NCBI RefSeq assembly: GCF_002243045.1
Contig: NZ_MBKP01000059.1
Location: forward strand, 1-32,217
Direction: 5' to 3'
DNA from: Methanolobus psychrotolerans
Lineage (GTDB): Archaea; Halobacteriota; Methanosarcinia; Methanosarcinales; Methanosarcinaceae
Length of the DNA: 32,217 bases
In this document: positions 5,364 through 29,986 of the stretch, piece after piece
How positions within the stretch are numbered: the stretch's first letter is position 1
Layout of the letters: the number at the start of each line of letters is the position of its first letter
Notes under the pieces: model-generated
Seen by the model: the letters and a program-made list of their open reading frames with translations, nothing else
Databases searched by the model: none
Told to the model about the DNA's origin: nothing
Position numbers and translations under genes: made by a program

Positions 5364-5365
5364 AC

Positions 5366-13401: not shown

Positions 13402-14173
13402 GTGGGTTTTTCCTTTTTATCTGCTTATTTATCAAAACTAATTCTGGTTTATCTCGAAGCAATTTTACAACATCTGAAGCAGAGAACTCCGGATTATGTG
13501 GATAAAGTTCCTCAAAAATCCTGCCGATAAGTTCATAGTCTTCCTGTGTGTCCAACGTAACTGCCAAATCTGGCCAATATACCTCTTCATCAGATTCCAT
13601 ATTCTTGAGCCGATATCGTTCTGGATGCTCATAAATGTATATAGAAACGTGTTCATGATCTACCGGATCAGATGTCAATGTATTGACCTCTTCTAAAATA
13701 GATACGGGAAAAACCTGCACATCAAATCCAATTGGATATGATCGGTCTATTGTATTTGAGACATAATCATAATCCCCATTTAAAAACACCTGTATATATT
13801 CATCTACAATATTAGGATCTACAAAGGGACAATCACCTGTGATCTCAACAATAATATCTGCAGATACACTTTTGGCTGCATCAAGAACACGTATTAAAAC
13901 ATCCTCCTCGCTGCCACGGAAATACTTAATATTCAATTTATCGCAAAGAGCAATAATTGGTTCGTCAGTATCATTTGTTGTAGTTGCAACTATAATTTCA
14001 TCCAAATATTCAGATCTTTGCAACCTTTCGATCAGAAGCTCAAGTACAGGGTACCCCATTATAGGTTTTAGTACTTTTCCAGGTAACCTTGTAGAAGTCA
14101 TCCTTGCTTCTATTGTAGCCACAATCTTTTTGCTTCGTGTTACTCCGGAGTTATCTTTTACACTTACTTCCAT
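13385..14173 (-). CDS. SpsF-type cytidylyltransferase
   Basis: This 262-residue member of the acylneuraminate/KdsB-like cytidylyltransferase group has the nucleotide loop IEARMTSTRLPGKVL at about 21-35. It is followed by YFRGSEEDVLIRVLDAA and VEITGDCPFVDPNIVDEYI, hallmarks of SpsF (spore-coat polysaccharide) proteins, and LAVTLDTQEDYELI near the end. SpsF/PseF-like enzymes activate nonulosonic acids with CTP. It lies 45 bp after the dehydratase gene and overlaps the Gfo/Idh gene. The ATG at 14173 is used with only a weak SD (GGTGTGG), so the N-terminal 14 residues are uncertain. It is a paralogue of the gene at 30572-31306, with the same signature blocks. Confidence 0.87.
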   Translation of the reverse strand: MEVSVKDNSGVTRSKKIVATIEARMTSTRLPGKVLKPIMGYPVLELLIERLQRSEYLDEIIVATTTNDTDEPIIALCDKLNIKYFRGSEEDVLIRVLDAAKSVSADIIVEITGDCPFVDPNIVDEYIQVFLNGDYDYVSNTIDRSYPIGFDVQVFPVSILEEVNTLTSDPVDHEHVSIYIYEHPERYRLKNMESDEEVYWPDLAVTLDTQEDYELIGRIFEELYPHNPEFSASDVVKLLRDKPELVLINKQIKRKNPHGNQV

Positions 14174-14218
14174 ATACTACCACACCAGTTACCAGTATGT
14201 TCATTACTGCACCTACGA

Positions 14219-15253
14219 TTATATAATGTTCTCTTTTATTAATATAGATTTTATCTCATCTTTTGTAATTGGCTCTACATCTCTTGAAATGTATTCAGTT
14301 GATGTTATTGGTGATGCGTTGTATGCAGTTTCATCGATCATTATCAGTTCATCTTTTATATTTGGTAAAATTATGAACATATCATCACGCTCAAGTGACC
14401 TGGTGGCTTCGTCATCTGTCATAAGTTCTTCATACAACTTCTCTCCAAGTTTTGTGCCAATGATCTTTGTACCAATGCTTTCCGGTCGATGTCCGTATCG
14501 TGCTGCCAGTTCATCTATAAGCACTTCAGCTAAATCAGATATTTTAACGGTTGGCATTTTAAGTATAAAAGCTTCCCCACCTTGTGATATCTCCATAGTC
14601 AGAACCAAGAGTTTTACTGCCTGCGACATTGCCATCATAAAACGCGTCATTTCAGGATCAGTGATGGTTATAAACCTACCTTCGTTAATTTGTCTTTTGA
14701 AAATAGGAATGACTGAACCACTGGAATCCATTACATTACCAAATCTTACACTCGAAAAAGCAGTCTTCTTACCCCCATAATAATTTGCAGACACCATTAG
14801 TTTTTCGCCCAATAATTTAGTAGCCCCCATAGTACTGCTTGGGTTTACAGCTTTGTCACTGCTTGTGAAAATAACCTTTTTTACATTTGTTTCTAAGCTT
14901 GCCTCAATAATATTTTGTACGCCGATTACATTTGTTTTAACTGTCTCGAACGGATTATATTCCGACGATAGTACATGTTTATAAGCTGCCGTATGAAATA
15001 CATAATCAATCCCATTTAATGCTCTTATAAGGCGGTCTTTATCGCGCACATCACCTATAAGGAAGCGTACATTATGTATATAGTTCTTTTCTGCCAGTTC
15101 ACTTTGAAAGTTAAACATCTCTGCCTCATTGGTGTCAAATATTCTAACAACCGCTGGCTTTTTATATTTCAATAGATATCTAATCAGTTCCTTTCCAACT
15201 GATCCGGCACCGCCAGTAACTAATATATTTTTGTTCTCAAAAAATTGAGTCAT
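14219..15253 (-). CDS. UDP-N-acetylglucosamine 4,6-dehydratase-like (polysaccharide biosynthesis protein)
   Basis: This 344-residue extended SDR is of the FlaA1/PseB/LegB class (PF02719-like). The Rossmann motif GGAGSVG is at 14-20, AAYKHV near 89-94, FTSSDKAVNP at 129-138, and MGATK at 142-146. In this class the usual catalytic Tyr is replaced by Met and an upstream Lys/Asp does the chemistry. Such enzymes remove water from UDP-GlcNAc to give the 4-keto-6-deoxy sugar, the first step to legionaminic, pseudaminic or bacillosamine-type sugars. It starts at the ATG at 15253, overlapping the upstream PFTS-type gene by 4 bp. A broken copy of a related gene lies at 31306-31545. C5 inversion or retention cannot be told by eye. 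Confidence 0.9.
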   Translation of the reverse strand: MTQFFENKNILVTGGAGSVGKELIRYLLKYKKPAVVRIFDTNEAEMFNFQSELAEKNYIHNVRFLIGDVRDKDRLIRALNGIDYVFHTAAYKHVLSSEYNPFETVKTNVIGVQNIIEASLETNVKKVIFTSSDKAVNPSSTMGATKLLGEKLMVSANYYGGKKTAFSSVRFGNVMDSSGSVIPIFKRQINEGRFITITDPEMTRFMMAMSQAVKLLVLTMEISQGGEAFILKMPTVKISDLAEVLIDELAARYGHRPESIGTKIIGTKLGEKLYEELMTDDEATRSLERDDMFIILPNIKDELIMIDETAYNASPITSTEYISRDVEPITKDEIKSILIKENII

Positions 15254-17172
15254 GTATCCTCCCCGTTTAATAGTTCACGGAATCTTGTTATTGCTTTACC
15301 ATCTGCATATGCATCAATTTCAGGAATTACATATGTGTTTATATAACTCTCAAATTCAATATCGCCAATTTCATATAACCAGTATTTAACGATGCTCTCA
15401 AAATCATCGAATCCATGTGCGACCATTTTAGGGAATTGGTCATAGTAATAGCCCTTGAAGCTGTCTGCTGCATCGAAGAAAATCGCTTTTTTCCTTGCAC
15501 CTAGTGCTTCAGGTGTAGTAGAAGTGAAACACGCAGAAACAACAAGATCAGATGCTGCTATCACTTCACATGTTTCTCCAAACCTTCCGGTTGAATAACA
15601 ACGTTCATGTGACTGTAGATTCTCATAAAGTTTATAGTAAATATCAAAATTATCTGGGTTCAAAGTTTCCATTTCTTCGAATATCTTCTTCTGTTTGAAT
15701 ATCACTCCAACATCTGGATTCCTTTCTAGGAACCTTAGAATTCCTTCTAAAAATGGAACCATATCACCTTTTTGCAATGGTACTTGATCTCCAAATGTTG
15801 TGTCAAATACTCCAATAATCTTGAGATCTTTGGTTTTAAATTTAGCAAAAGCATATTTACTCGTATCTGAAATAACTCCGTTATCAGTTATCATTCTTGC
15901 ATGCTCGGACCAAAGGCAACCTACAGTTTGAAACTTGGCGAAATAATTTATACACCTTGTGAAAATATCATTGGATTTACGCCCCCATGAAACCAAATTA
16001 TCGTAATACATATACGAATAGATAACATGCCTCATAGTGTCATTTTTTTGAGGATTCTCAAACACGTCGAAATGATGAGTAGAATGTACGTAATACCAAG
16101 TTTTAATATTGTTTTGTGAAAAAATGATGTTTCTTACAACATGGTATTTCTCAAAATGAGTGTATACAACATAATTATTCAAATTGTACTTTTTTGTGAA
16201 CATTGTCCATGTCATGTAGTAATAAAGAATTCCAATCGTTGTTTTTATTGTATACACTGGTTTGAATACAGAGAAAAAAAATGATAATACTGTAGTAGGG
16301 ATGATTTTCTTTATCAAATTATCCTTTATGAAGCCTAAATCAATTTCATGTAACGTTGCTCGCACATCTGCAACATCATATTTTGAGTTTAGATCTTTCC
16401 TGTAACTATCGGAGATCTTGGACTCGACACAAAATATGGAGTTATCTTTTGTTAAACTTTTTTCATCCAATAAAAAATCCACTCTACGATATTTGAAAAG
16501 GAAACCCCAATCATTCCCATATACCCTAAAACCATTTTTATATTTCTTCGAAGGATTTCTTTTCAACACAATTCTCCTAGTTTTCCACCCAAGTATCCAG
16601 AGTGGAAAAAAACCTAAAGCAGCTAGATAGAATGGCTTTATGACGATTGATTTTGCCGAGTTGAATACTCGAGAACTAAGTGGAATCCGAACATTGGGTT
16701 TTAATTCTGCTCCCGTGATTTTTAAGAAATGCGTAAAGTCAGATGAAATCAGTGTTATTGATTTTGTAGCTTCTGCTATCTCATTTACGCACAAATATCT
16801 GTGGTAGAAGATTTCAAGATTTTCAACTAAATCTTTTTTATATACCAACTGTATTTTTTCAGAATTGAATAATGAAGCCATTTGATGTATCAATTTACTG
16901 TCCTTTAAGATGGTACAGTATACCTTTTCTACATTATTTAGTGCCTGATCATGGCTTTTCATATTAAAGTCTAAATCAAAATCATCCCATTTTATCTTAT
17001 TAGCATGATATTTTGTGAGTAATTTTTGAAACCACATTGACCTTTCCAATCTGGGATCAATTGTGAAATACTTTATTGAATAGTTCCTTTTTGTATACAA
17101 ATAAAATGCAGGAATTGAACTAAATCCAAGTGATTCAAATACTACCAATTTATCATTATTCTTGCTTGTCAT
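15250..17172 (-). CDS. Large polysaccharide-biosynthesis protein with PFTS-like motif
   Basis: This is a 640-residue protein of unknown catalytic activity. The C-terminal part has VVSACFTSTTPEALGARKKAIFFDAAD, which resembles the 'PFTS' motif of a family of surface-polysaccharide proteins (here C replaces P); this match is recalled, not searched. The middle section contains hydrophobic stretches (AALGFFPLWILGW and FFFSVFKPVYTIKTTIGILYYYMTW) that may associate with the membrane, and a YYVHSTHHFDVFEN region of the kind seen in GT-B-like CDP-glycerol transferases. I use the ATG at 17172 because GGTGACC sits five bases upstream; the ATG at 17184 has no such site. It is followed by the dehydratase with a 4-bp overlap. 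A transferase role is likely. Confidence 0.78.
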   Translation of the reverse strand: MTSKNNDKLVVFESLGFSSIPAFYLYTKRNYSIKYFTIDPRLERSMWFQKLLTKYHANKIKWDDFDLDFNMKSHDQALNNVEKVYCTILKDSKLIHQMASLFNSEKIQLVYKKDLVENLEIFYHRYLCVNEIAEATKSITLISSDFTHFLKITGAELKPNVRIPLSSRVFNSAKSIVIKPFYLAALGFFPLWILGWKTRRIVLKRNPSKKYKNGFRVYGNDWGFLFKYRRVDFLLDEKSLTKDNSIFCVESKISDSYRKDLNSKYDVADVRATLHEIDLGFIKDNLIKKIIPTTVLSFFFSVFKPVYTIKTTIGILYYYMTWTMFTKKYNLNNYVVYTHFEKYHVVRNIIFSQNNIKTWYYVHSTHHFDVFENPQKNDTMRHVIYSYMYYDNLVSWGRKSNDIFTRCINYFAKFQTVGCLWSEHARMITDNGVISDTSKYAFAKFKTKDLKIIGVFDTTFGDQVPLQKGDMVPFLEGILRFLERNPDVGVIFKQKKIFEEMETLNPDNFDIYYKLYENLQSHERCYSTGRFGETCEVIAASDLVVSACFTSTTPEALGARKKAIFFDAADSFKGYYYDQFPKMVAHGFDDFESIVKYWLYEIGDIEFESYINTYVIPEIDAYADGKAITRFRELLNGEDT

Positions 17173-17223
17173 CAAGGTCACCATGGCACGTAAATAATTC
17201 TTAGTTTTATCCGCGATACGAAT

Positions 17224-18996
17224 TTATTTATTAAACTGTAAATTATGATATTTAGAGTAGTGACCACCTTTCACAATTAGCTCGTGATGGTTACCTTCTT
17301 CAACAACCACCCCATCCTCCATAACAATAATCTTATCAGCATGTTCTATTGTTGAAAGTCTATGTGCAATAGCTATTATTGTATGATTACTACTTAATTT
17401 ACTCAAAGAATCTTGAATCAGCCTCTCGGATTCAGTATCCAGAGCACTGGTTGCTTCATCTAATATCAATATTAGTGGTTTCCTTACAATAGCTCTCGCC
17501 AAAGCTAAACGCTGTCTCTGACCACCAGATAGTTTGACTCCCCTATCGCCTAATATCGTATTGTATTTCTCCGGCAACGCTACTATAAACTCATGAGCAT
17601 GTGAAATATTTGCAGCTTCAATTATCTGTTCTTCGGACAGATTGTCCAAACCATACGCTATGTTCGCTGCAACAGTATCATTAAACAAGAATACATCCTG
17701 ACTAACAAGACCGATACTTCTTCTAAATGAATTTATATCAAATTCCTTAATGTCTACTCCATCTATAAGTATAGAACCGGAGCTTACATCATAGAATCTT
17801 AGTAACAGATCCATCAATGTAGACTTGCCTGACCCTGATGAACCTACAATCGCCAGCATTTTTCCTTTTGGAATACTTATGTTTATCCCTTTTAGTACAT
17901 AATCCGGAGGATTGTAGAAAAAATCTACATTCTTGACTTCGATATTATTCTCGAAATTCTCAAAAGGCTTTGAACCGTTGACTATCTTTCTCCAATATTT
18001 AGTTTCATGATTGATCTCCGAAATATTTCTCAAGCTTGCAATATGACCCGAAAGTTCATGACGATAGTTGTTAATCGATTGTGCAAATGGAGCCATTCTC
18101 ACCATAATCAACATAAAAACAGCAAGTGAAGCGATAGTCATATTTAAAACTTCTATTGAAATATAGAATATAAATAAAATAGTAACAAATAGAATACCTT
18201 CGAAAATAGTGACAATACCAACACCATTTATTCCAAACCTATAGTTTGCATTACTATTATTACTTGCAATTCGATGCAGCTGCTTTGCTTCATTTTCTTC
18301 GGTTGCAGTAGTTTTGACAAGGCGTATGGCACTAAGAATTTCCACAATGAAATTATTGAGCTCATTATTCGAATCTACGACTTCGACTCCATACTTTTTA
18401 GATTTCTTTAGGTTATAGCTCATAGCCATAGATGCCATTACAACTATAATCACTGCAACAATTGTCATTTGCCACGAGATACTTAACAACAGTACCATAT
18501 ATACAGCTATAATCAGCAAGACATTTAGAGATTCAATAGCTACAAACAAACCTGATCCAGATTTATCGGCTTCTATAGTCAGAGTATTAACCAAGTTTCC
18601 TGTTTTCTTGTTGTTGAAATAATTTAAATCTGTATTTATTACGTTATTGAAAACTTCGTCTCGAAGCCGTGTGACAAAATCAAATCTTATTTTTAGTTTG
18701 TAGCTACTCCGCAAATAACCTAATATCTGCCTTACTATAAACAATAGAAGCACTCCTAAAAGAAGGGTTAAGAACGTCATTTGTAATCCAAAAGAATTAT
18801 AGACGAACTTTAAAATATCCCAGTACTGCCCCTCAAGCGAATTACTACTATCTACAAATTGTAGCAGTGGAAGAAGTGCACCTATACTTGCTCCTTCAAA
18901 AATAGCGTATGAAAATGTTAATGCAACAAGTATAGATATCTTGTTAATATTATGTCTTAAATATCCACCAAACAACTTTAGGTCACTAAATCTCAT
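17224..18996 (-). CDS. ABC transporter, permease fused to ATPase (lipid/oligosaccharide flippase type)
   Basis: This is a 590-residue half transporter. The N-terminal part, about 1-320, has around six membrane helices (for example SILVALTFSYAIFEGASIGA, LTLLLGVLLLFIV and LLIIAVYMVLLLSI). The C-terminal nucleotide-binding domain has Walker A GSSGSGKS at 385-392, the Q-loop in VSQDVF, signature LSGGQ at 489-493, Walker B LILILDE ending at 514, and an AHRLST H-loop. The arrangement is that of MsbA and of PglK, the flippase of lipid-linked oligosaccharides in Campylobacter, so it likely moves the glycan or lipid-linked sugar across the membrane. It probably works as a homodimer. A TATA-like box lies at 19068-19078, after a 169-bp gap. 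Confidence 0.93.
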   Translation of the reverse strand: MRFSDLKLFGGYLRHNINKISILVALTFSYAIFEGASIGALLPLLQFVDSSNSLEGQYWDILKFVYNSFGLQMTFLTLLLGVLLLFIVRQILGYLRSSYKLKIRFDFVTRLRDEVFNNVINTDLNYFNNKKTGNLVNTLTIEADKSGSGLFVAIESLNVLLIIAVYMVLLLSISWQMTIVAVIIVVMASMAMSYNLKKSKKYGVEVVDSNNELNNFIVEILSAIRLVKTTATEENEAKQLHRIASNNSNANYRFGINGVGIVTIFEGILFVTILFIFYISIEVLNMTIASLAVFMLIMVRMAPFAQSINNYRHELSGHIASLRNISEINHETKYWRKIVNGSKPFENFENNIEVKNVDFFYNPPDYVLKGINISIPKGKMLAIVGSSGSGKSTLMDLLLRFYDVSSGSILIDGVDIKEFDINSFRRSIGLVSQDVFLFNDTVAANIAYGLDNLSEEQIIEAANISHAHEFIVALPEKYNTILGDRGVKLSGGQRQRLALARAIVRKPLILILDEATSALDTESERLIQDSLSKLSSNHTIIAIAHRLSTIEHADKIIVMEDGVVVEEGNHHELIVKGGHYSKYHNLQFNK

Positions 18997-19165: not shown

Positions 19166-20320
19166 TCAGTAGTTTTCCGTTAAATAATCAGAGAATACTT
19201 CCCAAAACGGAGCCTCTCTAGAGTCTGAAGTTTTTATGTACTTAGATTTATACTCCATATATGCAGCACTATCTACTTCAAACTCTTTTTGAAGATCGAT
19301 TGCTACATCTAAATTTACATTGATCGGCTTCTTCCCAAAAGAAGCTGCCATTGAATGTATGTGTAGACCATACCAGCTTTTATTTAGCTCATCAGAAGTT
19401 AAGAATATAACTGGTTTTTGGAATAATACTGCAAAATTTACAGAGGTACTTGCATGACATATTACAAAAGAAGATTTGGAAACAAGCTCCAAAGTGTTAC
19501 CTTTTATAATGTGTCTCCCATTAAAATAATCAGAATGTTGTTCATAATTGGAACGGGGATGTGCGGCAATTATAATATTAGCACCACTTTTTGATTCAAT
19601 TGATCTGAATATCTTACATATCCCTTCGTAGTAACTTTCTGCACTTTCGGGAGCAGAAATGTTAGAATATGAATAGTCGGGATGAAATGGCATGTATTCA
19701 TCTAGAAAAACCCCATAATTTTCATTTACTCCCGGTTCTTTGATTTGATCTAAGTATAAATCATAGTCTAAAGCATGCAACCAGAGTTTATCTGTAGTAT
19801 TATCTACCGGATAAGTTGAAAAATTGGATTTTGTCCCTCCCAATAAAAGAAGAGAGGCACTTTTCACACCCAACCATTTAAAAGGCAAGTGCCTGAAGAA
19901 TTGATCCAGAACATGTTTTGGCTTTGCACTGAGTACTTTTCTGACATTGAATTTATTTTTCCTTAAAAGAGGAAGCAATGGAAGGGAATTGGCTGCCAAT
20001 AAACAATATCGAATTTTCATTTTGGAAAGGGTCCTGTAGATGAACAGCGAATTGATCCTAAAAGGAATAAGTAAAATAACAATATCATTTTGACCTAGTT
20101 CCATTATAGCAGATTTCACTTCACACTTGCTTGTAAAGTGTCTTGTTGCAAGTACTTTATTATTGACCCATGTGGTTTCAAGATCATGAGAATGAAACAC
20201 AGAGAAAAGACCCCATACTTCCACACTGAACCCATTCCTTTCAAAAGTTTCAACCCCGAATCTCTGGTAATCTCTTTCACCAAACGAATAATCTAAACAG
20301 AAAATAATTCTTCTTATCAT
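19166..20320 (-). CDS. Putative glycosyltransferase-like protein, uncharacterised
   Basis: This protein has 384 residues. The N-terminal half contains IIFCLDYSFGERDYQRFG and QNDIVILLIPFRINSLF. The C-terminal half contains IIIAAHPRSNYEQHSDYF and SSFVICHASTSVNFAVLFQKPVIFLTS, the His-Pro-Arg and His/Ser-Thr pattern found in capsule and polysialic-acid type GT-B transferases and in surface-carbohydrate proteins such as the large PFTS-type protein in this locus. I do not recognise a named family. It starts at the ATG at 20320, with a poor SD, 64 bp after the CBS gene. Position in the operon suggests assembly of the glycan. No membrane segment or signal peptide is clear. Confidence 0.65.
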   Translation of the reverse strand: MIRRIIFCLDYSFGERDYQRFGVETFERNGFSVEVWGLFSVFHSHDLETTWVNNKVLATRHFTSKCEVKSAIMELGQNDIVILLIPFRINSLFIYRTLSKMKIRYCLLAANSLPLLPLLRKNKFNVRKVLSAKPKHVLDQFFRHLPFKWLGVKSASLLLLGGTKSNFSTYPVDNTTDKLWLHALDYDLYLDQIKEPGVNENYGVFLDEYMPFHPDYSYSNISAPESAESYYEGICKIFRSIESKSGANIIIAAHPRSNYEQHSDYFNGRHIIKGNTLELVSKSSFVICHASTSVNFAVLFQKPVIFLTSDELNKSWYGLHIHSMAASFGKKPINVNLDVAIDLQKEFEVDSAAYMEYKSKYIKTSDSREAPFWEVFSDYLTENY

Positions 20321-20384: not shown

Positions 20385-20720
20385 TTAGTAGGATTCAATG
20401 AGATCGATTATCTTGTTATCCTCATCCAAAACGGGTATTAAAAATATACGACTCTTAGCAAAGATCCTATTAGCTTCATCAATGTTGCTCTCTTTGAGGA
20501 ATATGAAGTTCAAATTCATCACGTTTCTTATTTTAGTTGATAAAAGTTCACCTCTCAGTATAGCTTTCCTGATATCCCCATCACTGATAGTTCCCACAAC
20601 TACGTCATCATCTCCAAGAACTATCAGACTTCGATGTTCATTTTCTTCGATGAGCGACATTGCATCAAGGATTGGAAATTCTTCATTTATAGTATATTTC
20701 AACATTTTATTTTTATCCAT
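20385..20720 (-). CDS. Stand-alone CBS-domain pair (PtmE/LegX regulatory half-like)
   Basis: This protein of 111 residues consists of two CBS repeats, about 8-58 and 62-111, with VVGTISDGDIRKAIL at the end of the first and FLIPVLDEDNKIIDLIE at the end of the second. In bacterial legionaminate loci the glucosamine-1-phosphate guanylyltransferase PtmE (LegX) has just such a pair at its N-terminus, followed by a nucleotidyltransferase domain. Here the protein ends where that domain would begin, and no such domain follows in any frame of the 64-bp gap. It may bind nucleotides and regulate a partner in trans, or be a truncated relic. It starts at the ATG at 20720 with GGGATTGAT upstream, 13 bp after neuC. 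Confidence 0.85.
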   Translation of the reverse strand: MDKNKMLKYTINEEFPILDAMSLIEENEHRSLIVLGDDDVVVGTISDGDIRKAILRGELLSTKIRNVMNLNFIFLKESNIDEANRIFAKSRIFLIPVLDEDNKIIDLIESY

Positions 20721-20733: not shown

Positions 20734-21873
20734 TCAATAAGTCAATGTTTTATTCAGTAGATGTTGATCAATTTCAACATTTTTGAGTATGTCTACAATT
20801 TTCTGACTGGCGTCCCCATCACCATACGGGTTTTCCATTCCTTTTACAGCTTGTTTGAATTCTTTTGACAAACCTTTCAGAATAGCAGCTTCTATCTTCT
20901 CAGAATCATGCTCTACGTTAATTACATTAATTCCCTGAAGTCTCCCTATCTGGCGTCTTCCAATATTAACCGCTGGCAGTTCAAATGAAGGTGCCTCTAA
21001 CAATGCACTACTGGAATTGCCAACTATTATATTAGCAACATTCATAAGTCCGGCATAATCCTCACGTTTTAGATTTCTTTCTACGTGAATGAACTGCTTG
21101 CGATGCTTTTCAATGCTCTTTTGTATCATTACACTACCCGCATCATTATTTGGATATACGAGTAATGTCTGCATTTTTAGTCTAGATATAGCCTTCAATG
21201 TTTCTTCCATCTGCATGCCACTATTCCAAGATTCTTCTGTAACCGGATGTTGTACAAGCAAAATAAGAGGTTCTTCAGGAGTCAAATGGAATTTATAATA
21301 AATCTCTTCAGGAGATGTGAAAAAACCTTGTCTAAACTCATCTAACTGAGGAGCTCCTACAAGTTTGACTCTGAACTTCTCCTCTCCCATCTTCAACAAT
21401 CTTTCAGATGCATCTACATTTGATGCAAAATGAATATGTGCGAATTTGGTAATAGCATGTCTTGACATACCATCCACATTACCCGATAGCTCACCTGCCT
21501 GAATGTGGGCCACGGGTATGTTCATATGAGCGCCAACTATTGCTGAAATCAGTTGTTCTCCCCTGTCCCCGGCAAGCAAGATAAAATCAGGTTTTATCCT
21601 TTCGAAGGTATCTGTGATGGATAGCATAAAGACTGCAAGCGACTTTGCCATCGTCACATTGGTATAACCTGCAAGTGTCATCGGAATCTTCTGGCTTATT
21701 CTCAGGTTGTCCTTTTCAATCTCACGGTAGCTGGAACCAAAGTCAGGGAGAAGGTGCATGTTAGTAACGATGAGTTCATAATCAAGGTCCGGATCATTCT
21801 CAATTAACTTGATTATGGGGCGGATATAACCATACTCACCTCTTGAACCGGTAATCACTGCTATCCTTCTCAT
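20734..21873 (-). CDS. neuC: UDP-N-acetylglucosamine 2-epimerase, hydrolysing (NeuC/LegG type)
   Basis: This 379-residue enzyme has the WecB/NeuC fold. VITGSRGEYGYIRPII is at the N-terminus, LLAGDRGEQL around 99-108, HIQAGELSGNVDG near 123-135, and IVGNSSSALLEAPSF near 285-300, with a QHPVTEES segment carrying the usual catalytic His. The hydrolysing branch releases UDP and produces ManNAc or the 2,4-diacetamido-6-deoxy-mannose precursor of legionaminic acid. It starts at the ATG at 21873, overlapping neuB by 4 bp (ATGA). Substrate, and so the choice between neuC and legG, cannot be settled by eye; a 4,6-dehydratase and an aminotransferase in the same operon favour the legionaminic route. Confidence 0.93.
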   Translation of the reverse strand: MRRIAVITGSRGEYGYIRPIIKLIENDPDLDYELIVTNMHLLPDFGSSYREIEKDNLRISQKIPMTLAGYTNVTMAKSLAVFMLSITDTFERIKPDFILLAGDRGEQLISAIVGAHMNIPVAHIQAGELSGNVDGMSRHAITKFAHIHFASNVDASERLLKMGEEKFRVKLVGAPQLDEFRQGFFTSPEEIYYKFHLTPEEPLILLVQHPVTEESWNSGMQMEETLKAISRLKMQTLLVYPNNDAGSVMIQKSIEKHRKQFIHVERNLKREDYAGLMNVANIIVGNSSSALLEAPSFELPAVNIGRRQIGRLQGINVINVEHDSEKIEAAILKGLSKEFKQAVKGMENPYGDGDASQKIVDILKNVEIDQHLLNKTLTY

Positions 21874-22892
21874 TCAAAATCATCCCATTTTACCAGATGG
21901 TCCTTAGGCAAGTCATACTTAGCTTTTTTGCCAAGAACATCATTAATCCGGTCTGATGGGATACCAGTACCCGGCCTCTTTGTCCAAAGATGATCCCATG
22001 TCAATGTATCTCCTTTTTTGACTTCGCTTATCGTCACAACACTTCTGTACGCCCATTCACGTATCTGTTTTTCCCTGTCATGTATCTTTTTACTGCTGCC
22101 AAGTGATAGTTCTATCTTTCTGATCCCATCCACCAGATATTTCAAATCCAGCATATCAATGGAAACAGATTGATCAGGACCAGGTTGCTTTTTGTCCAGA
22201 ACTATATGTTTCTCGATTATCTTTGCACCAAGCACCACTGCTGCAAAGCTAGTATAGAGATCAGGAGTATGATCTGAATGACCTATCACTATGTCAGAAT
22301 ACTTCTCGAGCATTCGGGAGATTGTCTGAAGATTCATATCCTCGTAAAGAGGAGGATATTCAGATATACAGTTCATCAAAGCAAAATTGTTGCCTTTGCT
22401 CTTCATCAAAGCATAAACCTGATCGATCTCCTCAAGTGTGCTCATCCCTGTTGAGATAATCATTGGATGCCCTATATCTGCAATCTTTGAAAGTGATGGG
22501 AAATCCTTCATTTCGCCGGAACCTATTTTAAAGTGTTGGAGACCTATACTATGGAGTTCCAGGGCAGCTTTGTAACTGAACGGGGTACACATATATGTCA
22601 TCCCTATGTTATCACAGTAATTCTTAAGATCTGCATGTTGATCTAGGGTCAGAGCGTTCCTCACAAGGAAATCATAAAGGGGTTCCTCAAAATTATCCGA
22701 AAGAGGAATATCCTTTAACATCTCTTCATCCGGCAGATGATGCTGAAATTTTATTGCATCTGCCCCTGCAAGCTTAGCCTGCAAAGCCATCTCTTTTGCC
22801 ACTTCCACGCTACCCAGATGGCTGTCTGCAGCTTCTGCAATTATGAAACATCGTGACCCTCTTGAAATTGTTTTTCCTGAAATCATTATCAT
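21870..22892 (-). CDS. neuB: N-acetylneuraminate/legionaminate synthase (NeuB type)
   Basis: This 340-residue synthase condenses phosphoenolpyruvate with an N-acylated mannosamine-like sugar. The N-terminal TIM barrel starts with FIIAEAADSHLGSVEVAKE, contains ADAIKFQHH, FKIGSGEM, ISTGMST, NCISEYP, GHSDHT and EKHIVLD as in NeuB, and the C-terminal SAF (antifreeze-like) domain covers about 283-340. In most NeuB proteins the first motif reads AEIGxNHNG; here it reads AEAADSHLG, so the substrate pocket may differ. It starts at the ATG at 22892, after GGAGGGT, overlapping the neuA stop by one base. A second synthase is encoded at 27085-28182. Confidence 0.93.
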   Translation of the reverse strand: MIMISGKTISRGSRCFIIAEAADSHLGSVEVAKEMALQAKLAGADAIKFQHHLPDEEMLKDIPLSDNFEEPLYDFLVRNALTLDQHADLKNYCDNIGMTYMCTPFSYKAALELHSIGLQHFKIGSGEMKDFPSLSKIADIGHPMIISTGMSTLEEIDQVYALMKSKGNNFALMNCISEYPPLYEDMNLQTISRMLEKYSDIVIGHSDHTPDLYTSFAAVVLGAKIIEKHIVLDKKQPGPDQSVSIDMLDLKYLVDGIRKIELSLGSSKKIHDREKQIREWAYRSVVTISEVKKGDTLTWDHLWTKRPGTGIPSDRINDVLGKKAKYDLPKDHLVKWDDFE

Positions 22893-23638
22893 TATTCCAT
22901 ACCCTCCATATTTTTAATGACGTTACCTGTTTGTAGTAGAGATTCAGCCACTTTTAGATCGAATATCTCATCTATATCGATCGAGCGGCTTTGATGCATT
23001 ACATAGAAAGAGTTCTTTTCTTCCTTATCAAAGAATAATCCTTTCTTCCTTAAAGTGTCCACAGGAGTAATATATATAGCACCATTCATAAAGTAAAATT
23101 GAGAGAAACTCTGTCTACCACAGCATTTTTTCGATTCCTCAAATGCCAGTTTCATATCATGACCTTCTATACGGATACAATCGTAAGGATGCTCCGATGG
23201 GATATTCACTGATATAAGGCATTCTATGCCATATTCCTTACTTTCTTCCAGATATTGCTGAATAGAGCTATCGATATCATGTTCATCCCTCAGAGGACAA
23301 GTAGGCTGCAAAAGCACAACGTAGTCCGGTACATACCCTTCATTCACTTCGAGATATTCCAATGCATGAAGAACCACGTCAAGGCTTGATGCCGTATCGG
23401 TTGCAAGATGTTCAGGTCTTCTGAAAGGAATCTTTACGTTGAATTTGCGGCTCAGATCCATTACCGCAGTGTCATCAGTCGTCACTATGGTGAAATCCAG
23501 CAGCCTGCTTTTTTCAGCAGCTTCGAGGGTGTACTGGATAAGAGGTTTATTGTCAAGAAGGGTCAGGTTTTTATTTTTTATCCCTTTTGACCCTTTTCTG
23601 GCAGGGATTATTCCCAAGAATTTCTTTTTGGAGGACAT
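22892..23638 (-). CDS. neuA: CMP-N-acylneuraminate cytidylyltransferase (NeuA/LegF type)
   Basis: This 248-residue enzyme has the classic loop IIPARKGSKGIKNKNL near the N-terminus, followed by LIQYTLEAA, TTDDTAVMDL, RRPEHLATDTASSLD and VVLLQPTCPLRDEHD, the full NeuA pattern. It activates a nonulosonic acid to the CMP form. I start it at the ATG at 23638, so the loop begins about ten residues in; an upstream TTG at 23680 would overlap the aminotransferase gene and has no SD either. It begins 4 bp after the aminotransferase stop, and runs into neuB with a one-base overlap. With neuB and neuC it forms a compact sialic or legionaminic acid core. Confidence 0.94.
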   Translation of the reverse strand: MSSKKKFLGIIPARKGSKGIKNKNLTLLDNKPLIQYTLEAAEKSRLLDFTIVTTDDTAVMDLSRKFNVKIPFRRPEHLATDTASSLDVVLHALEYLEVNEGYVPDYVVLLQPTCPLRDEHDIDSSIQQYLEESKEYGIECLISVNIPSEHPYDCIRIEGHDMKLAFEESKKCCGRQSFSQFYFMNGAIYITPVDTLRKKGLFFDKEEKNSFYVMHQSRSIDIDEIFDLKVAESLLQTGNVIKNMEGME

Positions 23639-23642
23639 GTCT

Positions 23643-24809
23643 TTAAAGTAGTTTTGAGGATATTTCGCATACGGAATCAATCACGTGATTTATATCGGTT
23701 TCCGACATCTTGACATTTATAGGCAACGCAATGGCCCTTTCCAAAAGAAGTCTTGATGCAGGCCATAGTTGAGAGCAATTCTGCAAATGAGGGAACTCCT
23801 TGAAGAGATGATCCCACGTGCCTGCGAAATGCCACTGCAGAGCATCGGGCAGGTTCTTAGTACCTAGGCCTTTTTCATAGAGCATTGATACAAACCTTTC
23901 AGCAATGTCTTTCTTTGGCAAGAAGAATACCAGAGTATCACCAATGTCACCGACCGGATCGTGTATGACCCTAAACTCAAGACCAAGGTCTTTGATACTT
24001 TCTTTTACCCTGTTCTTATTTTCTCGCTGCTTAGAGATGATTAAGTCTAACTTATTCATCTGTGCAATGCCAATTGCAGCTTGTATCTCAGTCATCCTAT
24101 AATTAAAGCCTGGTGAAGAGCGTGTATCTTTCCCTCGGGGGAAATTTGGATTGTATTCATGTCCGTGATCATGCAAAGCCCGTGACCTATTAAAGACATC
24201 TATTTCATTTGTGACAATAGCTCCACCTTCGCCAGTAGTTATGTTCTTGGCAAAATCAAAACTATAGATGCCTGCATTCCCAATGGTACCTGTAGGTTTA
24301 CCTTTGAACGAACCACCGAAACACTGCGCAGAATCCTCAAGAACAGGGATATTGTATTTGTTGGATATAGAGATTATGCCGTCCATATCAGCCGGCGCCC
24401 CGGCCATATGAACCGGTAGTATTAGCCTTGTCCTTTCAGTAATTTTCCTTTCCAGATCTTTAAGGTCCATGTTCAAAGAGGTATCTACTTCAGTAATCAC
24501 GGGTATAGCACCAGCTTCAATAATAGCTTCCACTGTTGCAACAAACGTGAAACTTTGAGTTATAACCTCATCGCCCTTCTGTACCCCAAGTGCCTTAATT
24601 GCCACTAGAAGAGCTGCAGAACCTGAAGAAACAACTTGGCAGTGATTACTTTTCACTTTACTGGAGATGACATTCTCAAACTCTCTTACTTTATAGACTC
24701 CTTTCCTCAGAGGATCAAAGCCATGGGCAAACAAAACTCCACCATTAAGGTTGAACAACTCTAGAGCAGCGTTTTTTTCTTCCTCTCCAAATAATTCGTA
24801 TCCTGGCAT
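23643..24809 (-). CDS. KdnA-like PLP aminotransferase (DegT family)
   Basis: This 388-residue aminotransferase has D159 (LEDSAQCFGG) and the PLP lysine K188 (SFDFAKNITTGEGG). MPGYELFGEEEK at the N-terminus, SFTFVATVEAI, VHMAGAPADMDGI, GSFKGKPTGTIGNAGIYSFD and LHDHGHEY recall KdnA, which makes 8-amino-3,8-dideoxy-manno-octulosonate in Shewanella; I recognise this from memory of that sequence. The next gene upstream is an iron-type alcohol dehydrogenase like KdnB, the partner that makes the aldehyde. Here the pair feeds into neuA-neuB-neuC, so the substrate may be a nonulosonate or its precursor. It starts at the ATG at 24809 with GGAGTATTATC upstream, 12 bp after the dehydrogenase. A plain LegC-type role at C4 remains possible. 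Confidence 0.88.
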   Translation of the reverse strand: MPGYELFGEEEKNAALELFNLNGGVLFAHGFDPLRKGVYKVREFENVISSKVKSNHCQVVSSGSAALLVAIKALGVQKGDEVITQSFTFVATVEAIIEAGAIPVITEVDTSLNMDLKDLERKITERTRLILPVHMAGAPADMDGIISISNKYNIPVLEDSAQCFGGSFKGKPTGTIGNAGIYSFDFAKNITTGEGGAIVTNEIDVFNRSRALHDHGHEYNPNFPRGKDTRSSPGFNYRMTEIQAAIGIAQMNKLDLIISKQRENKNRVKESIKDLGLEFRVIHDPVGDIGDTLVFFLPKKDIAERFVSMLYEKGLGTKNLPDALQWHFAGTWDHLFKEFPHLQNCSQLWPASRLLLERAIALPINVKMSETDINHVIDSVCEISSKLL

Positions 24810-24821
24810 GATAATACTCCA

Positions 24822-25988
24822 TTATGCAACTATTACTTTACTGAGCAAATATCTTACATCATTCTCCCCGAAATTTACAGGATTGAGCTTCAGGTTTTCC
24901 AGCCGCTGCTGCATCGTCAGACTTACAAGCAATTCAATGTCCTTTGTAGAAACCCCATACCCTGTAAGATTTAATGGGGCACTTGTATCACAATAGAACT
25001 CCTGAAACTTATCTGCAAACCTTAATGACTTTTCTTCCGGGGTCAGACCCTCTTTATGACCATCAATAAGATCATACAGTTCCGCATAATCAAGGAAACC
25101 GTGCTCTACATTGAACCTGATCACATGAGGCAAGAATATCCCACCCGCTATTCCATGGGGAACTTTGAAATGGCTACCCAGTGGATAAGATATACCACTT
25201 GCAGGGCCACCACCCACATTATACATAGCGATGCCTGCAAGGTGACTGCCCATAAACAGGTTCTCATGAGCAATTATATCTCCTTTATCATCAATCGCTT
25301 TGACGAGATTGTTGAATAACAGGCCAAAAGCCTCTTTTCCTATTGCCTTTGAAAGGGTATTTGAATTCTTACATGCAAAAGCTTCAATCGCATGCACCAA
25401 TGCATCGAGAGCTGAACCTGATTTAATAATCCGCGGTGCATCTAAAAGTACCATTGGATCAAGTACTGCAAGCAATGAACCTACATTCTTACCATTTATT
25501 CCCAATTTCCGTACTTCTTTTTTGTCAGTGAATACGGCCGTTCTGGTAGCTTCAGTACCAGTTCCCGCAGTCGTTGGGATGAGTATGACTGGAACACCAG
25601 GAATATTCACCTTGTCAAAACCCCGGTAATCAATACCTTTACCTGGATTCCTTAACATGATTCCTACACCTTTTGCAAGGTCACATGCGCTGCCTCCGCC
25701 AATCCCAATGATACAATCTATGACGCTGTCATGAAAAAAAGCAGTTACTTCATCCAGATAATCATAGTCGGGTTCTGAACCTGCTCTGGATCTGAAAATA
25801 TTTGTCTGAAAAGAACCATCACTTTCAAACGAAGTTATTATTTTCTGGACATGGGTGTTTAGGGCAACCCCTTCGTCAACAATCATGCCAATGTGTCTGA
25901 GATCCATTTCCTTGACTTTCGAGGATAATGAGAGAGAAGCGTTCTGACCAAACATTATGTCTGTATGACATGAGAATTTGTTTAACAT
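24822..25988 (-). CDS. Iron-containing alcohol dehydrogenase family protein (KdnB-like)
   Basis: This 388-residue group III dehydrogenase has the cofactor loop IGIGGGSACDLAK at about 95-106 and IPTTAGTGTEATRTAV at 138-152. Metal ligands D195 and H199 (ALDALVHAIEAF) and H278 (PHG) are present. At the two other positions where FucO-like enzymes carry His (14 and 10 residues before the PHG His), this protein has Ser264 and Tyr268 (PASGISYPLG), with a His at 273. KdnB of Shewanella oxidises the C8 hydroxyl of Kdo; the pairing with the KdnA-like gene downstream suggests a similar terminal alcohol to aldehyde step here. It starts at the ATG at 25988 with AAGGAGAAT upstream, the first gene of the operon. 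Confidence 0.88.
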   Translation of the reverse strand: MLNKFSCHTDIMFGQNASLSLSSKVKEMDLRHIGMIVDEGVALNTHVQKIITSFESDGSFQTNIFRSRAGSEPDYDYLDEVTAFFHDSVIDCIIGIGGGSACDLAKGVGIMLRNPGKGIDYRGFDKVNIPGVPVILIPTTAGTGTEATRTAVFTDKKEVRKLGINGKNVGSLLAVLDPMVLLDAPRIIKSGSALDALVHAIEAFACKNSNTLSKAIGKEAFGLLFNNLVKAIDDKGDIIAHENLFMGSHLAGIAMYNVGGGPASGISYPLGSHFKVPHGIAGGIFLPHVIRFNVEHGFLDYAELYDLIDGHKEGLTPEEKSLRFADKFQEFYCDTSAPLNLTGYGVSTKDIELLVSLTMQQRLENLKLNPVNFGENDVRYLLSKVIVA

Positions 25989-26548: not shown

Positions 26549-27079
26549 CTATTTATCCAATTCACCATGAAGCATGCTATAAAATAAAGAATCGTGCCAT
26601 TTTCCTTCAGACCAATGAGTTTCTCTATGCCTACCCTCAAGTTTGAATCCCATTTTCTTGAAAAAGAGAGCTTTTAGGTCGTCAAAGTCATAGATCTCTG
26701 CCCATAATCTGTGCAATCCAAGTTCTTCAAACGCGTAACGGGCCATAATATGTCCAGCATCTAATGCAAATTCATCGTCGATATACAATCCATCAGCTCC
26801 AATATATATTGAAAAATCTGCATTTTTATTGATCCAGTCAATGTAACAAAGTCCACAAGCTCCGAGTAGCTGTTTGTTCTCTAGTTCAACTATAGCGAAC
26901 ATAATGGTCTTCTGGTCTTTCATAACAATTTCTTCAAACCAGAAATTTTGATGCTCATTGTTTAGTTCACGATATTCTCTAAAATAACGCCGATATTCCG
27001 GGCTGTTACGATAATCCAATAACATTCCCAAGTCAGAACGCTCTATTGCACGCAGACCCACATGTTCACCTTTTAGCAT
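26549..27079 (-). CDS. GNAT N-acetyltransferase (RimJ/RimL- or PseH-like)
   Basis: This 176-residue acetyltransferase begins with LKGEHVGLRAIERSDLGMLLDYRN and has LENKQLLGACGLCYIDW, a GNAT core strand, and HIMARYAFEELGLHRLWAEIYDFDDLKALFFKKMGFKLEGRHRE, the region that carries the acetyl-CoA loop and the family's C-terminal motif. PseH and related enzymes acetylate the 4-amino group of UDP-4-amino-sugars in the pseudaminic acid pathway, and the NeuB-type synthase directly upstream fits. I start it at the ATG at 27079 because GAGGGGT is spaced seven bases from it and only one base from the ATG at 27085, which touches the synthase stop. The substrate is inferred. Confidence 0.85.
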   Translation of the reverse strand: MLKGEHVGLRAIERSDLGMLLDYRNSPEYRRYFREYRELNNEHQNFWFEEIVMKDQKTIMFAIVELENKQLLGACGLCYIDWINKNADFSIYIGADGLYIDDEFALDAGHIMARYAFEELGLHRLWAEIYDFDDLKALFFKKMGFKLEGRHRETHWSEGKWHDSLFYSMLHGELDK

Positions 27080-27084
27080 AATCA

Positions 27085-28182
27085 TTACCCCTCGAAATCA
27101 TACTCATAAAGAGCATCTCCCGCTAATTTAGAACACTTAAGGGTTTTACCAACTACCTGATTCATTCTATAAGGTTCGATGGAGCCTTTTGGTGCAGGGC
27201 GAAGAGATTCAAAATCATCATTACTAATCTTATCTCCTGCATTCATATCACGTGTTAACCGTAAACAACGACGTTGAACAATTGCGGTATCAACTTCATT
27301 TTGCTCAATGCGCTTTACTCCATCACCCAAAGATATCTCAAGTTCACGACTGCGTCCTACCATCTCTTTCCATGTTTCCGGATTCATAGAGAACGAATGA
27401 TCAGGCCCTGCTCGATGATGATCATCGGTGAAATGTTTTTCAATAACCCTAGCTCCCAAAGTGATAGCTCCAAGAACCGTGGCATGTAATGGCGTATGAT
27501 CTGAAAGACCAATGACCATATTCGGATATTTAGCAGCAAATGATTTCAATACTTTTAGATTGATGTACTTGAAATTCTCAAGACTTCCTGTGTAATTTGT
27601 ATTGCACTGTAACAAAACAAGTTGAGAATTATGCTTCAGAACAGAGTCAACAGCCCGTTCTACATCATTTATATCCGATGCTCCGGTTGCCATTATTACC
27701 GGTTTATTCTTTTTTGCAATTACTTCTAGGAAATCAGTCCAAGTAATATCACCTGACCCTATTTTATATGCAGGGATATACTTGTCGAACAATTCAACAG
27801 CTTCCACATCATATGGTGTAGTAAGAAAATCAATTTTTGCCTCTTTTGCAGTTTTTACCAGTTCTGTTGTCCAGTCCCTGTTGCATTCATATTGTTCATA
27901 TATCTCAAAAACAGATTTATCCCATGATTCCTGATGACTCATTTTACTGCCAAGATGTTTGAAACCATAATCACTAACTATATTTCCGGCTTTAAAATGT
28001 TGAAATTTGACAGCATCCGCACCGGATTCTTTTGCAAGCCATATCAACTCTTTGGCACGCTCAATATCTCCATCATGATTAGATGCAACATCTGCAATGA
28101 AATATGTAGGTGAAGATATAGAAATTTCTCTTTTTCCAATATATATTACGTCATCATACCTCAGTTTTAACACCGCCTTCAT
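27085..28182 (-). CDS. neuB: Second NeuB-type nonulosonate synthase
   Basis: This 365-residue synthase is of the NeuB/PseI/SpsE family. The barrel starts with YFIADVASNHDGDIERAKE and goes on with GADAVKFQHFKAGNIVS, FLTTPYD, YKIGSGDITW, IMATGAS, LLQCNTNYTG, GLSDHT and EKHFTDD; a C-terminal SAF-like domain is at about 300-365 (VQRRCLRLTRDMNAGDKIS). The AEIGxNHxG signature of the family is IADVASNHDG here. The protein is longer than the NeuB at 21870 because of an insertion near KHLGSKMSHQESWDKSVFE. The start is uncertain: the ATG at 28182 overlaps the reductase gene by 29 bp, and a GAGGT site lies inside the reading frame after it. It is likely to make a different sugar acid from NeuB at 21870. 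Confidence 0.9.
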   Translation of the reverse strand: MKAVLKLRYDDVIYIGKREISISSPTYFIADVASNHDGDIERAKELIWLAKESGADAVKFQHFKAGNIVSDYGFKHLGSKMSHQESWDKSVFEIYEQYECNRDWTTELVKTAKEAKIDFLTTPYDVEAVELFDKYIPAYKIGSGDITWTDFLEVIAKKNKPVIMATGASDINDVERAVDSVLKHNSQLVLLQCNTNYTGSLENFKYINLKVLKSFAAKYPNMVIGLSDHTPLHATVLGAITLGARVIEKHFTDDHHRAGPDHSFSMNPETWKEMVGRSRELEISLGDGVKRIEQNEVDTAIVQRRCLRLTRDMNAGDKISNDDFESLRPAPKGSIEPYRMNQVVGKTLKCSKLAGDALYEYDFEG

Positions 28183-29038
28183 ACTCTTCAAGAATACGTG
28201 TGATCACATCATCAAATGCAGGCAACTTATATCCCAATATACCCTCTGCTACTTCAACATCAAGGCCATTGCTCTCTGCTCGCACCACATTCCCACATGC
28301 ATTTAGAATACTGCCAACATTAACATTAGTTAATTCATATCCCATTCTTTTTGCCAGAGTGAGAATAAACGTCTTCTTACTAGTAACCTCACTACTTGCC
28401 AAATTTAATATACCTGTGTGCTTTTTTTCTATAATATCAAATAGTGCAGAAGAAAATTGCGTAACACAAATACTTGATGTAAAATAATCTTCAAAAAGGG
28501 TCATATGAGAACCATTTTCTATATTTTGAATGGCCCACTCAACAAATGTCGGCTTCTCTGCTTTATTGCGAAAACCTACAATATTTGTACGTACAACCAA
28601 CGAATTAGGGCAGGTTAATGCAAACTTTTCGGCTGCATATTTAGTTCTTGCATATTCATTAAGCAACCGAATAGGGTCTTCTTCCCTATGTTTTGAATTG
28701 TAATCATCTGTATAGAAGTGATCGGTTGATATTTGGACAAAATATATTTCGTTCTTTGCTGCAATTTCAGATATTACAGAAGCGGGCCGAGCATTAACCA
28801 GATATGCATAACCGGGATTAACTTCACATTCCGTCAGGCTCACAATTGCTGCACAATTAATAATAACTTGAGGAGCAGTTGACAATATTATTTTTTTTAA
28901 AGCCTGATCATCAGCAATGTCACAAGAAAAATCTGCACCGCTACGAGCAATTCCAATTGCTTCCATACCACGCTTTTCAATTTCACAAATTAATGCCTGA
29001 CCTAGCAAGCCTGTGGAACCTATGACTAAAACATTCAT
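28154..29038 (-). CDS. RmlD-like NAD-dependent reductase/epimerase
   Basis: This is a 294-residue extended SDR. The Rossmann start MNVLVIGSTGLLGQALICEI, the strand-4 motif VIINCAAIVSLTECEVNP, the YVF/TDHFY-type block QISTDHFYTDD, and the EYARTKYAAEKFAL helix, which carries the catalytic YxxxK, are those of dTDP-4-dehydrorhamnose reductase (RmlD). It probably reduces a 4-keto sugar, or a related keto intermediate of the synthase product encoded next. I use the ATG at 29038; a GTG two codons earlier is possible. It lies 15 bp after the epimerase stop and overlaps the synthase gene downstream. No RmlA-RmlC genes are in the window, so rhamnose itself is unlikely. Confidence 0.85.
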   Translation of the reverse strand: MNVLVIGSTGLLGQALICEIEKRGMEAIGIARSGADFSCDIADDQALKKIILSTAPQVIINCAAIVSLTECEVNPGYAYLVNARPASVISEIAAKNEIYFVQISTDHFYTDDYNSKHREEDPIRLLNEYARTKYAAEKFALTCPNSLVVRTNIVGFRNKAEKPTFVEWAIQNIENGSHMTLFEDYFTSSICVTQFSSALFDIIEKKHTGILNLASSEVTSKKTFILTLAKRMGYELTNVNVGSILNACGNVVRAESNGLDVEVAEGILGYKLPAFDDVITRILEEYEGGVKTEV

Positions 29039-29053
29039 ATTCACTGCCCGGCC

Positions 29054-29986
29054 TCAATTACCTTTCATCCACGTCCTCAATTTTCCGATGCCTTCCTTAA
29101 GACTTGTACTAGGTCCCCAGCCCAACAGGCGTTTAGCTTTTGAGTAATCACATACAAGTTTTGGTATTTCACTTTGTGGATGAATGTGTTCAACGTGTTC
29201 TATTCTTTCTGGATCATTGCTTATCATGGATGCAAGGTCATTAATTGTTACATCTTGACCAACTCCAGCATTCAGTATTTCTCCATTTACTGAATCTGAA
29301 TATCCCGCTTTCACTACAAATTCCGCACAGTCTTCTACATACATCAAATCCCGTGTTTGAGTCCCATTGCCGTAAATGTTCAATGTTTCACCATTAATAT
29401 CTTTCCCAACAAAAATAGGAACTACACCACCTTCTCCGGTTGCTTTCTGGTAAGGACCGTAGGTATTAAATGGGCGTAATATTACAGTAGGCAAACCGTA
29501 TGCATGGTAGTATGATTGTACCATATTTTCTCCAGCAAGCTTGGCACCTGCATAAGGAGAGGCGGCTTTTGTAGGATGCATTTCAGATATAGCAGTACCT
29601 AAGGATGCAGTATCATAAACCATACATGTACTCATAAACACAAATTTTGTATTGTGCCTGCGAGCCTCTTCCAGTACATTAAATGTTCCGATAACATCGT
29701 TATCAAATGTCTTTTTCGGGTTATCTATACTATCCTGTACAATAATACTGGCTGCGAGATGAACACAAATGTCTATGTTATTCCCAAATATTGCTGAAAG
29801 AGTAGATAAGTCTTTTATGTCACCAATTGTAAATTCTAAATTAGGATTATCCATAAATTCTGCAAGATTTTCTATCCTGCAATTCGATAAATTATCAAGT
29901 ACGAATACATGATGACCATCTTCAAGAAATTTTTTGACAACCCATCTTCCTATAAAACCTGAACCGCCTGTGACCAAAATATTCAT
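29054..29986 (-). CDS. NAD-dependent epimerase/dehydratase (UDP-sugar 4-epimerase type)
   Basis: This 310-residue extended SDR begins MNILVTGGSGFIGRWVV, with GGSGFIG at 7-13. VFVLDNLSNC, VHLAASIIVQDS, FMSTCMVYDTA, PYAGAKLAGE (YxxxK) and LRPFNTYGPYQKA follow the GalE/WbpP-type pattern, with RDLMYVEDCAEFV near the end of the substrate domain. The Tyr of the triad is preceded by SxxxxY as usual. It starts at the ATG at 29986 with AAGGAGAAAT at about 29992-30001. It is likely to form a C4-epimerised or 4-keto UDP-sugar. Upstream is a 278-bp gap with an AT-rich region (a TATA-like TTTTAAATATGC near 30045) and a decayed gene. Confidence 0.88.
   Translation of the reverse strand: MNILVTGGSGFIGRWVVKKFLEDGHHVFVLDNLSNCRIENLAEFMDNPNLEFTIGDIKDLSTLSAIFGNNIDICVHLAASIIVQDSIDNPKKTFDNDVIGTFNVLEEARRHNTKFVFMSTCMVYDTASLGTAISEMHPTKAASPYAGAKLAGENMVQSYYHAYGLPTVILRPFNTYGPYQKATGEGGVVPIFVGKDINGETLNIYGNGTQTRDLMYVEDCAEFVVKAGYSDSVNGEILNAGVGQDVTINDLASMISNDPERIEHVEHIHPQSEIPKLVCDYSKAKRLLGWGPSTSLKEGIGKLRTWMKGN

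Follow-up and report, generated by a model that had tools for sequence, protein, structure and literature searches.

The contig NZ_MBKP01000059.1 of the archaeon Methanolobus psychrotolerans (assembly GCF_002243045.1), analyzed over its whole length of 32,217 nucleotides and called the window below, carries five co-directional genes on its minus strand, from position 25,988 to position 20,734, that we predict to make a terminally aminated nonulosonic acid. The first encodes an iron-containing (type III) alcohol dehydrogenase (ADH; 24822..25988; Pfam families PF00465/PF25137), and is followed by genes for a pyridoxal phosphate-dependent aminotransferase of the DegT fold (AT; 23643..24809; PF01041, 273 bits), a NeuA-like cytidine monophosphate (CMP)-nonulosonate cytidylyltransferase (22892..23638; CTP_transf_3), the nonulosonate synthase NeuB1 (21870..22892; NeuB and SAF domains), and NeuC, a member of the hydrolyzing uridine diphosphate N-acetylglucosamine (UDP-GlcNAc) 2-epimerase family (20734..21873; Epimerase_2). 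With the best starts, which are an ATG at 25988 for the ADH, preceded by AGAAGGAG and placed on the basis of this ribosome-binding site, and an ATG at 23638 for NeuA, the ADH and AT genes are 12 bp apart and the AT and NeuA genes 4 bp apart, NeuA and NeuB1 overlap by 1 bp, and NeuB1 and NeuC overlap by 4 bp. The original prediction for this stretch had given the same arrangement, position, gaps, and overlaps, all of which were reproduced exactly; the word "fused" in its title was wrong, the genes being merely adjacent. The arrangement exceeds chance because the same order recurs in L005, an archaeon of the same phylum, and, among Flavobacteriales, in five genomes (L178–L182).

Aminotransferase and dehydrogenase

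Sequence, fold, and phylogeny all place the AT in the KdnA family. Compared by sequence with solved structures, it reaches 273 bits with KdnA of Shewanella (5k8b) and no more than 166 with any other, a lead of 107 bits. The AlphaFold model of the AT (predicted local distance difference test score, pLDDT, 92) returns 5k8b at Foldseek rank 1 with a TM score of 0.93, 36% identity, and an E-value of 1.7e-40, the next match standing at 2.6e-33. A tree of 62 rows places the window AT inside the KdnA family and separates this family from PseC-like rows and E. coli LegC with support of 100/99; the reference sets of our trees were modest, with two LegI enzymes, two N-acetylneuraminic acid (Neu5Ac) synthases, one KdnA, and one KdnB. 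The original prediction had called the AT KdnA-like, and structure-database score, top fold match, and tree all confirm this. The grouping with LegC and PseC that it had named as telling against it was looked for in the tree and is absent.

The same data bear on the idea that the operon is simply one for legionaminic acid, with a conventional aminotransferase of the PseC/LegC type and an alcohol dehydrogenase of unrelated kind. Among NCBIfam models, the AT matches PseC and LegC best, at 218 and 201 bits, but both scores fall far under the respective cut-offs of 423.5 and 420. Together with the lead of KdnA and the split in the tree, this refutes LegC or PseC as the family assignment and leaves the explanation as a whole highly improbable.

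Within the 62-row tree, the 19 ATs whose loci also encode NeuB or NeuA make up a single clade (support 100/100), and the Kdo-linked and other rows, KdnA included, lie outside (Kdo is 3-deoxy-D-manno-octulosonic acid). The motif [TV]K-x-[LIV]-P-[DE]-[AS]-x-x-W-H-[FY]-[AT] is found in every one of these 19 members and in none of the 43 other rows. At this signature, which lies in the C-terminal domain, the window AT carries TKNLPDALQWHFA, and KdnA carries DGCFYWYVNNWHYLKN at the same position; the WH pair and a later W are kept but their neighbors are changed, which fits a change of substrate. The window AT does not conform to the active-site-side motif of the Kdo-linked subgroup (xxxx-N-x-W-H) and sits in the nonulosonate-linked clade instead. 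We infer that the signature segment lines the active site.

The dehydrogenase had been described as KdnB-like in the original prediction, a label that does not hold at the level of the subfamily. The window ADH belongs to the iron-ADH fold and family, with PF00465 and PF25137 both over cut-off, but its best match in the PDB is methanol dehydrogenase at 157 bits, against 84 bits for KdnB (5k8c). In the ADH tree, it clusters with the enzymes encoded at L005, L006, L139, L140, and L143 (SH-aLRT support 99), all of which adjoin ATs of the nonulosonate type, and this clade lies apart from FucO, methanol dehydrogenase, deltaproteobacterial Kdo-linked ADHs, and KdnB. Membership of the KdnB subfamily (cd08184) was therefore rejected. 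The window ADH is a different iron-ADH, predicted to fill the role of KdnB. The ADHs of the Flavobacteriales operons are themselves KdnB-family enzymes (348 bits), so that two iron-ADH lineages are paired with a single clade of nonulosonate-type ATs, which points to an oxidation-then-amination pair.

NeuA, NeuB, and NeuC and related loci

The three remaining genes encode homologues of NeuA, NeuB, and NeuC. The best PDB matches of NeuA are CMP-Neu5Ac synthetases (6ifd, 115 bits), and its scores lie below the NCBIfam equivalog cut-offs. NeuC exceeds the cut-off of the NCBIfam NeuC model (NeuC_NnaA; 399.6 versus 235.9 bits), a model that cannot tell NeuC from LegG because the gene of the E. coli Leg cluster is also named NeuC. 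NeuB1 has NeuB of Neisseria meningitidis (NmNeuB) as its best PDB match (208 bits), scores under the NCBIfam NeuB equivalog cut-off (296.5 versus 399.65 bits), and groups in the tree with NmNeuB and the NeuB proteins of Flavobacteriales (99/98), away from E. coli LegI. Of the residues listed for the substrate site of NmNeuB (PMC6795526), NeuB1 keeps E25, Q55, N74, T110, F112, K129, Y186, S213, H215, E234, and R314 and differs at two positions (N184 to S and F288 to W).

A scan of 84,980 species genomes gave 80 AT loci, of which selected ones were read, so that the present account covers the window and a few dozen relatives. KdsB stands beside the AT in 31 of the 80, a Kdo8N-like setting (Kdo8N is 8-amino-Kdo), and NeuB in four, which are among the loci closest to the window. 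Rearranged versions of the module are found in a metagenome-assembled genome (MAG) of Thermoplasmata (L006) and in another genome of the same class (L139). Directly after the ADH–AT pair, L006 also encodes a single protein of 580 residues (4059–5801) in which a NeuB/SpsE-like synthase is fused to an SpsF-like cytidylyltransferase.

A further search of Flavobacteriales found eight positives among 108 genomes of the order (that of genome G394). In the five that share the gene order of the window, NeuB and NmNeuB are 67–68% identical along some 335 residues, and neither LegB nor LegC has a match beside the operon in the 13–20 kb read, with one weak DegT match further off in L182. WbuX-, HisH-, and WbuZ-like genes, associated with acetamidino formation, lie beside Flavobacteriales operons (L179:3801–6533, L007:7501–10014, and similarly in L180–L182), and the sugar or a neighboring sugar may accordingly carry an amidino group. 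Two others of the eight, L007 and L177, have the variant order ADH–AT–NeuA–phosphatase–NeuB. The phosphatase is nearest to the family of phosphatases for the 9-phosphate of 2-keto-3-deoxynononic acid (KDN), at 161.6 bits and thus below the cut-off of 180. If it acts as such, C9 would bear phosphate until after condensation, and amination in these loci would therefore come later.

A third form, a NeuA–ADH–AT triad with an AT of the nonulosonate type, occurs in Bacteroidota (L141–L147, for example L143:6075–9158). The score band of the triad holds 77 of 395 Bacteroidota genomes, and seven loci were read. All 11 triad genomes that were checked have a KDN-9-phosphatase-like gene and a short NeuB elsewhere, unlinked to the triad, and the one genome checked that lacks the triad also lacks this pair. 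We predict that the Bacteroidota triad is part of a route to CMP-9-amino-KDN. The pathway is thus not specific to archaea, since it also occurs in Flavobacteriales, elsewhere in Bacteroidota, and in a single MAG of Burkholderiaceae.

These distributions speak to the possibility that the ADH and AT produce a sugar of their own, such as a 6-amino hexose that ends up in the same glycan, and that a simple sialic acid pathway just happens to be encoded in the same operon. Mixed pathways are common in operons for surface glycans, and many other sugar genes lie in the window. Against this stand the tight gene order kept across the archaeal phylum and Flavobacteriales, the single clade formed by the nonulosonate-linked ATs, and the triads, which stand alone in many Bacteroidota genomes with a KDN-type synthase and phosphatase elsewhere in each of the 11 checked. 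A separate sugar is quite improbable on this evidence.

Predicted pathway in a methanogen

McrA, of methyl-coenzyme M reductase, was found in the host genome, and the host is therefore a methanogen; KdsA had no match there. A methanogen without KdsA should not make Kdo, and Kdo was therefore set aside as an unlikely substrate of the pathway. The operon has a GC content of 0.41, and its tetranucleotide composition correlates at 0.954 with the other contigs of the genome, as fits the host. Contamination of the archaeal genome is unlikely given this composition, the presence of McrA, and the gene order shared with L005, with the caveat that the contig is a lone 32-kb piece and that a search of the assembly for archaeal 16S found nothing. 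At an E-value of 1e-60 or below, the AT is absent from the other sampled genomes of the host genus and, across 393 genomes of the phylum, is present in one besides that of the host. Plasmid and phage records contained no close relatives, the best match being 31–35%.

We consider it probable that the operon makes a CMP-activated, terminally aminated nonulosonate for a surface glycan, most likely CMP-9-amino-9-deoxy-Neu5Ac. The family membership of the proteins, their operon, and the clades seen in the trees are direct findings, as are the return of the module alongside a synthase of the Neu5Ac type in Flavobacteriales and the lack of a KdsA match; the substrate, the position of amination, the order of steps, the product, and its use are inferred. 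The idea of a 9-amino nonulosonate, already the predicted product in the original prediction, is strengthened by the Flavobacteriales operons and by the missing KdsA.

The substrate of NmNeuB is N-acetylmannosamine (ManNAc), whose C6 hydroxyl becomes the C9 hydroxyl of the product. In the predicted pathway, NeuC would convert UDP-GlcNAc to ManNAc, which NeuB1 would condense with phosphoenolpyruvate to give Neu5Ac. The iron-ADH would then oxidize the C9 hydroxyl of free Neu5Ac to the aldehyde, and the KdnA-family AT would place an amino group on this aldehyde, yielding 9-amino-9-deoxy-Neu5Ac. NeuA would add CMP to the aminated sugar, for use by a downstream glycosyltransferase. By this analogy, the logic would be that of Kdo8N synthesis by KdnB, KdnA, and a cytidylyltransferase, shifted from an eight-carbon to a nine-carbon sugar.

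A different order of steps would have the pair act before condensation, to give 6-amino-6-deoxy-ManNAc or a nucleoside diphosphate-linked 6-amino sugar that NeuB would then take up; this route would end in the same product, a 9-amino nonulosonate, unless NeuB refuses the substrate, in which case a different product would form. The position of the ADH and AT genes at the head of the operon does not fix the order of the steps, and chemoenzymatic work shows that sialic acid enzymes take C6-modified mannose derivatives (PMC10795189). However, the C9-phosphatase-like gene of the KDN-type modules would be useless if C6 already bore nitrogen, and the Kdo8N pair acts on the free ulosonic acid. Amination before condensation is improbable.

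Several observations weigh against 9-amino-Neu5Ac as the product. NeuB1 shares just 35% identity with NmNeuB and has a long branch in the tree, the window NeuC is nearer to E. coli LegG than to K1 NeuC, the ADH is not of the KdnB subfamily, and a PseB-like dehydratase (14219), a DegT protein (11116), and a GNAT protein (26549) in the window could feed NeuC or NeuB1. In addition, L140 (3172–12887) joins an ADH–AT–NeuA set of the same type to genes for LegC-like (41%), LegI-like NeuB (50%), NeuC, NeuD-like, and CBS-domain nucleotidyltransferase proteins, and the module may thus not always act on a sugar with a C9 hydroxyl. L140 itself may make an 8-amino legionaminic-type sugar like that of Flexibacter maritimus.

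The main rival explanation has the pair aminate C8 instead, on a 9-deoxy substrate resembling legionaminic or pseudaminic acid, to give a 5,7,8-triamino nonulosonate. L140, the kinship of the window NeuC with LegG, and the PseC/LegC-like aminotransferases encoded downstream in L005 and L006 are in its favor, and an 8-amino-3,5,7,8,9-pentadeoxy nonulosonate is known to occur in nature (PMC3210612). On the other side are the Flavobacteriales operons, which combine a Neu5Ac-type NeuB with no LegB or LegC match nearby, the C9-phosphatase-like gene of the KDN-type variants, and the separation of NeuB1 from LegI in the tree. KdnB and KdnA, moreover, reportedly act on the primary alcohol and aldehyde of Kdo (Gattis, 2013, cited in PMC5125639). 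Amination at C8 is unlikely, though it keeps a real chance.

For the wider family, we lean by a small degree toward a natural 9-amino-9-deoxy sialic acid pathway, of Neu5Ac and KDN types, across archaea, Flavobacteriales, and other Bacteroidota, with a single origin in a Kdo8N aminotransferase that switched to nonulosonic acids and with two iron-ADH lineages recruited to it.

Neighboring genes and known pathways

The operon may extend into three more genes on the minus strand. A small CBS-domain protein of 111 residues (20385..20720; PF00571) is encoded 13 bp downstream of NeuC; CBS domains occur near related operons too and in L006 and L140 form part of proteins that also have a dehydratase-like or a nucleotidyltransferase domain. 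Next is a candidate glycosyltransferase (19166..20320), without a Pfam family and a possible user of the CMP sugar, which has a 37% identical homologue beside the L005 operon (11984–13177) with conserved HP and ST motifs. Its model is GT-B-like at low confidence (pLDDT 59), and the fold therefore matches GT-B just in a general sense. An ATP-binding cassette transporter, MsbA-like by sequence and possibly a glycan flippase (17224..18996), is linked to the operon by position only.

A second gene set lies upstream, beyond a gap of 540 bp (26549–29986), with another NeuB, an acetyltransferase, and two short-chain dehydrogenases. This NeuB (27085–28191), accompanied by a PseH-like acetyltransferase and by RmlD-like and GDP-mannose-dehydratase-like genes, groups with the NeuB of L010, apart from the Neu and Leg references. 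A further island (5366–17184) holds radical S-adenosylmethionine proteins, an MptE-like protein, the PseB-like dehydratase, the DegT aminotransferase, and SpsF/KdsB-like cytidylyltransferases; two of its open reading frames (7335–8534 and 15250–17184) have no Pfam family above cut-off.

The predicted pathway shares features with several known systems. Like the Kdo8N pathway of Shewanella oneidensis, it has a KdnA-family AT, an iron-ADH, and a CMP-sugar synthetase, predicted to take the terminal alcohol of a free ulosonic acid through an aldehyde to an amine before CMP activation. Unlike that pathway, its partners are NeuA, NeuB, and NeuC instead of Kds enzymes, in a host without KdsA, its AT belongs to a clade apart, marked by a distinct signature in the C-terminal domain, and its ADH is outside the KdnB subfamily. 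The C8 CH2-NH2 carbon of Kdo8N has been observed by nuclear magnetic resonance near 44 ppm (PMC6357163). As in the Neu5Ac pathways of N. meningitidis and E. coli K1, NeuC, NeuB, and NeuA homologues are encoded in a single operon, with NeuB1 grouping with the meningococcal enzyme, but the window adds an ADH and a KdnA-family AT in front. The legionaminic acid pathway of Halorubrum sp. PV6 (PMC6137143) likewise combines NeuA, NeuB, and NeuC homologues with a DegT aminotransferase in an archaeal host; there, however, LegC acts on a 4-keto sugar together with LegB and LegH, whereas the window AT is of the KdnA family and the operon contains neither LegB nor LegH. L007, L177, and the triad genomes resemble the Bacteroides KDN pathway (KDN-9-phosphate synthase, KDN-9-phosphate phosphatase, and CMP-KDN synthetase) in having a short NeuB and a KDN-9-phosphatase-like gene but add an ADH and an AT, with 9-amino-KDN as the predicted product. 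The 8-amino-pentadeoxy nonulosonate of the Flexibacter (Tenacibaculum) maritimus O-polysaccharide (PMC3210612) is a natural nonulosonate with side-chain nitrogen, which it bears at C8 of a 9-deoxy sugar, unlike the sugar predicted for the window.

The new element would be the transfer of terminal amination of the Kdo8N type to nonulosonic acids. In the open literature searched, with most subscription journals outside its scope, we found no natural 9-amino nonulosonate or pathway to one, no biosynthetic genes for the F. maritimus sugar, and no paper on KdnA/KdnB biochemistry. One paper calls CMP-activated 9-amino sialic acids unnatural analogues made by synthesis (PMC8319020), and another presents 9-N-acetyl-Neu5Ac as a man-made, stable stand-in for 9-O-acetyl-Neu5Ac (PMC10795189). 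If the prediction is correct, organisms make the parent 9-amino compound that is now treated as man-made, probably in several forms. Archaeal nonulosonate chemistry, with experimental support mainly for N-formyl-legionaminic acid in Halorubrum and a report of pseudaminic acid in Methanobrevibacter smithii (PMC6137143), would then extend beyond these two. Such enzymes would give access to 9-amino sialic acids without chemistry, and the signature motif would allow these sugars to be predicted from genomes. The result would be a widespread, real surface sugar with a positive charge, a zwitterionic sialic acid on microbial surfaces.

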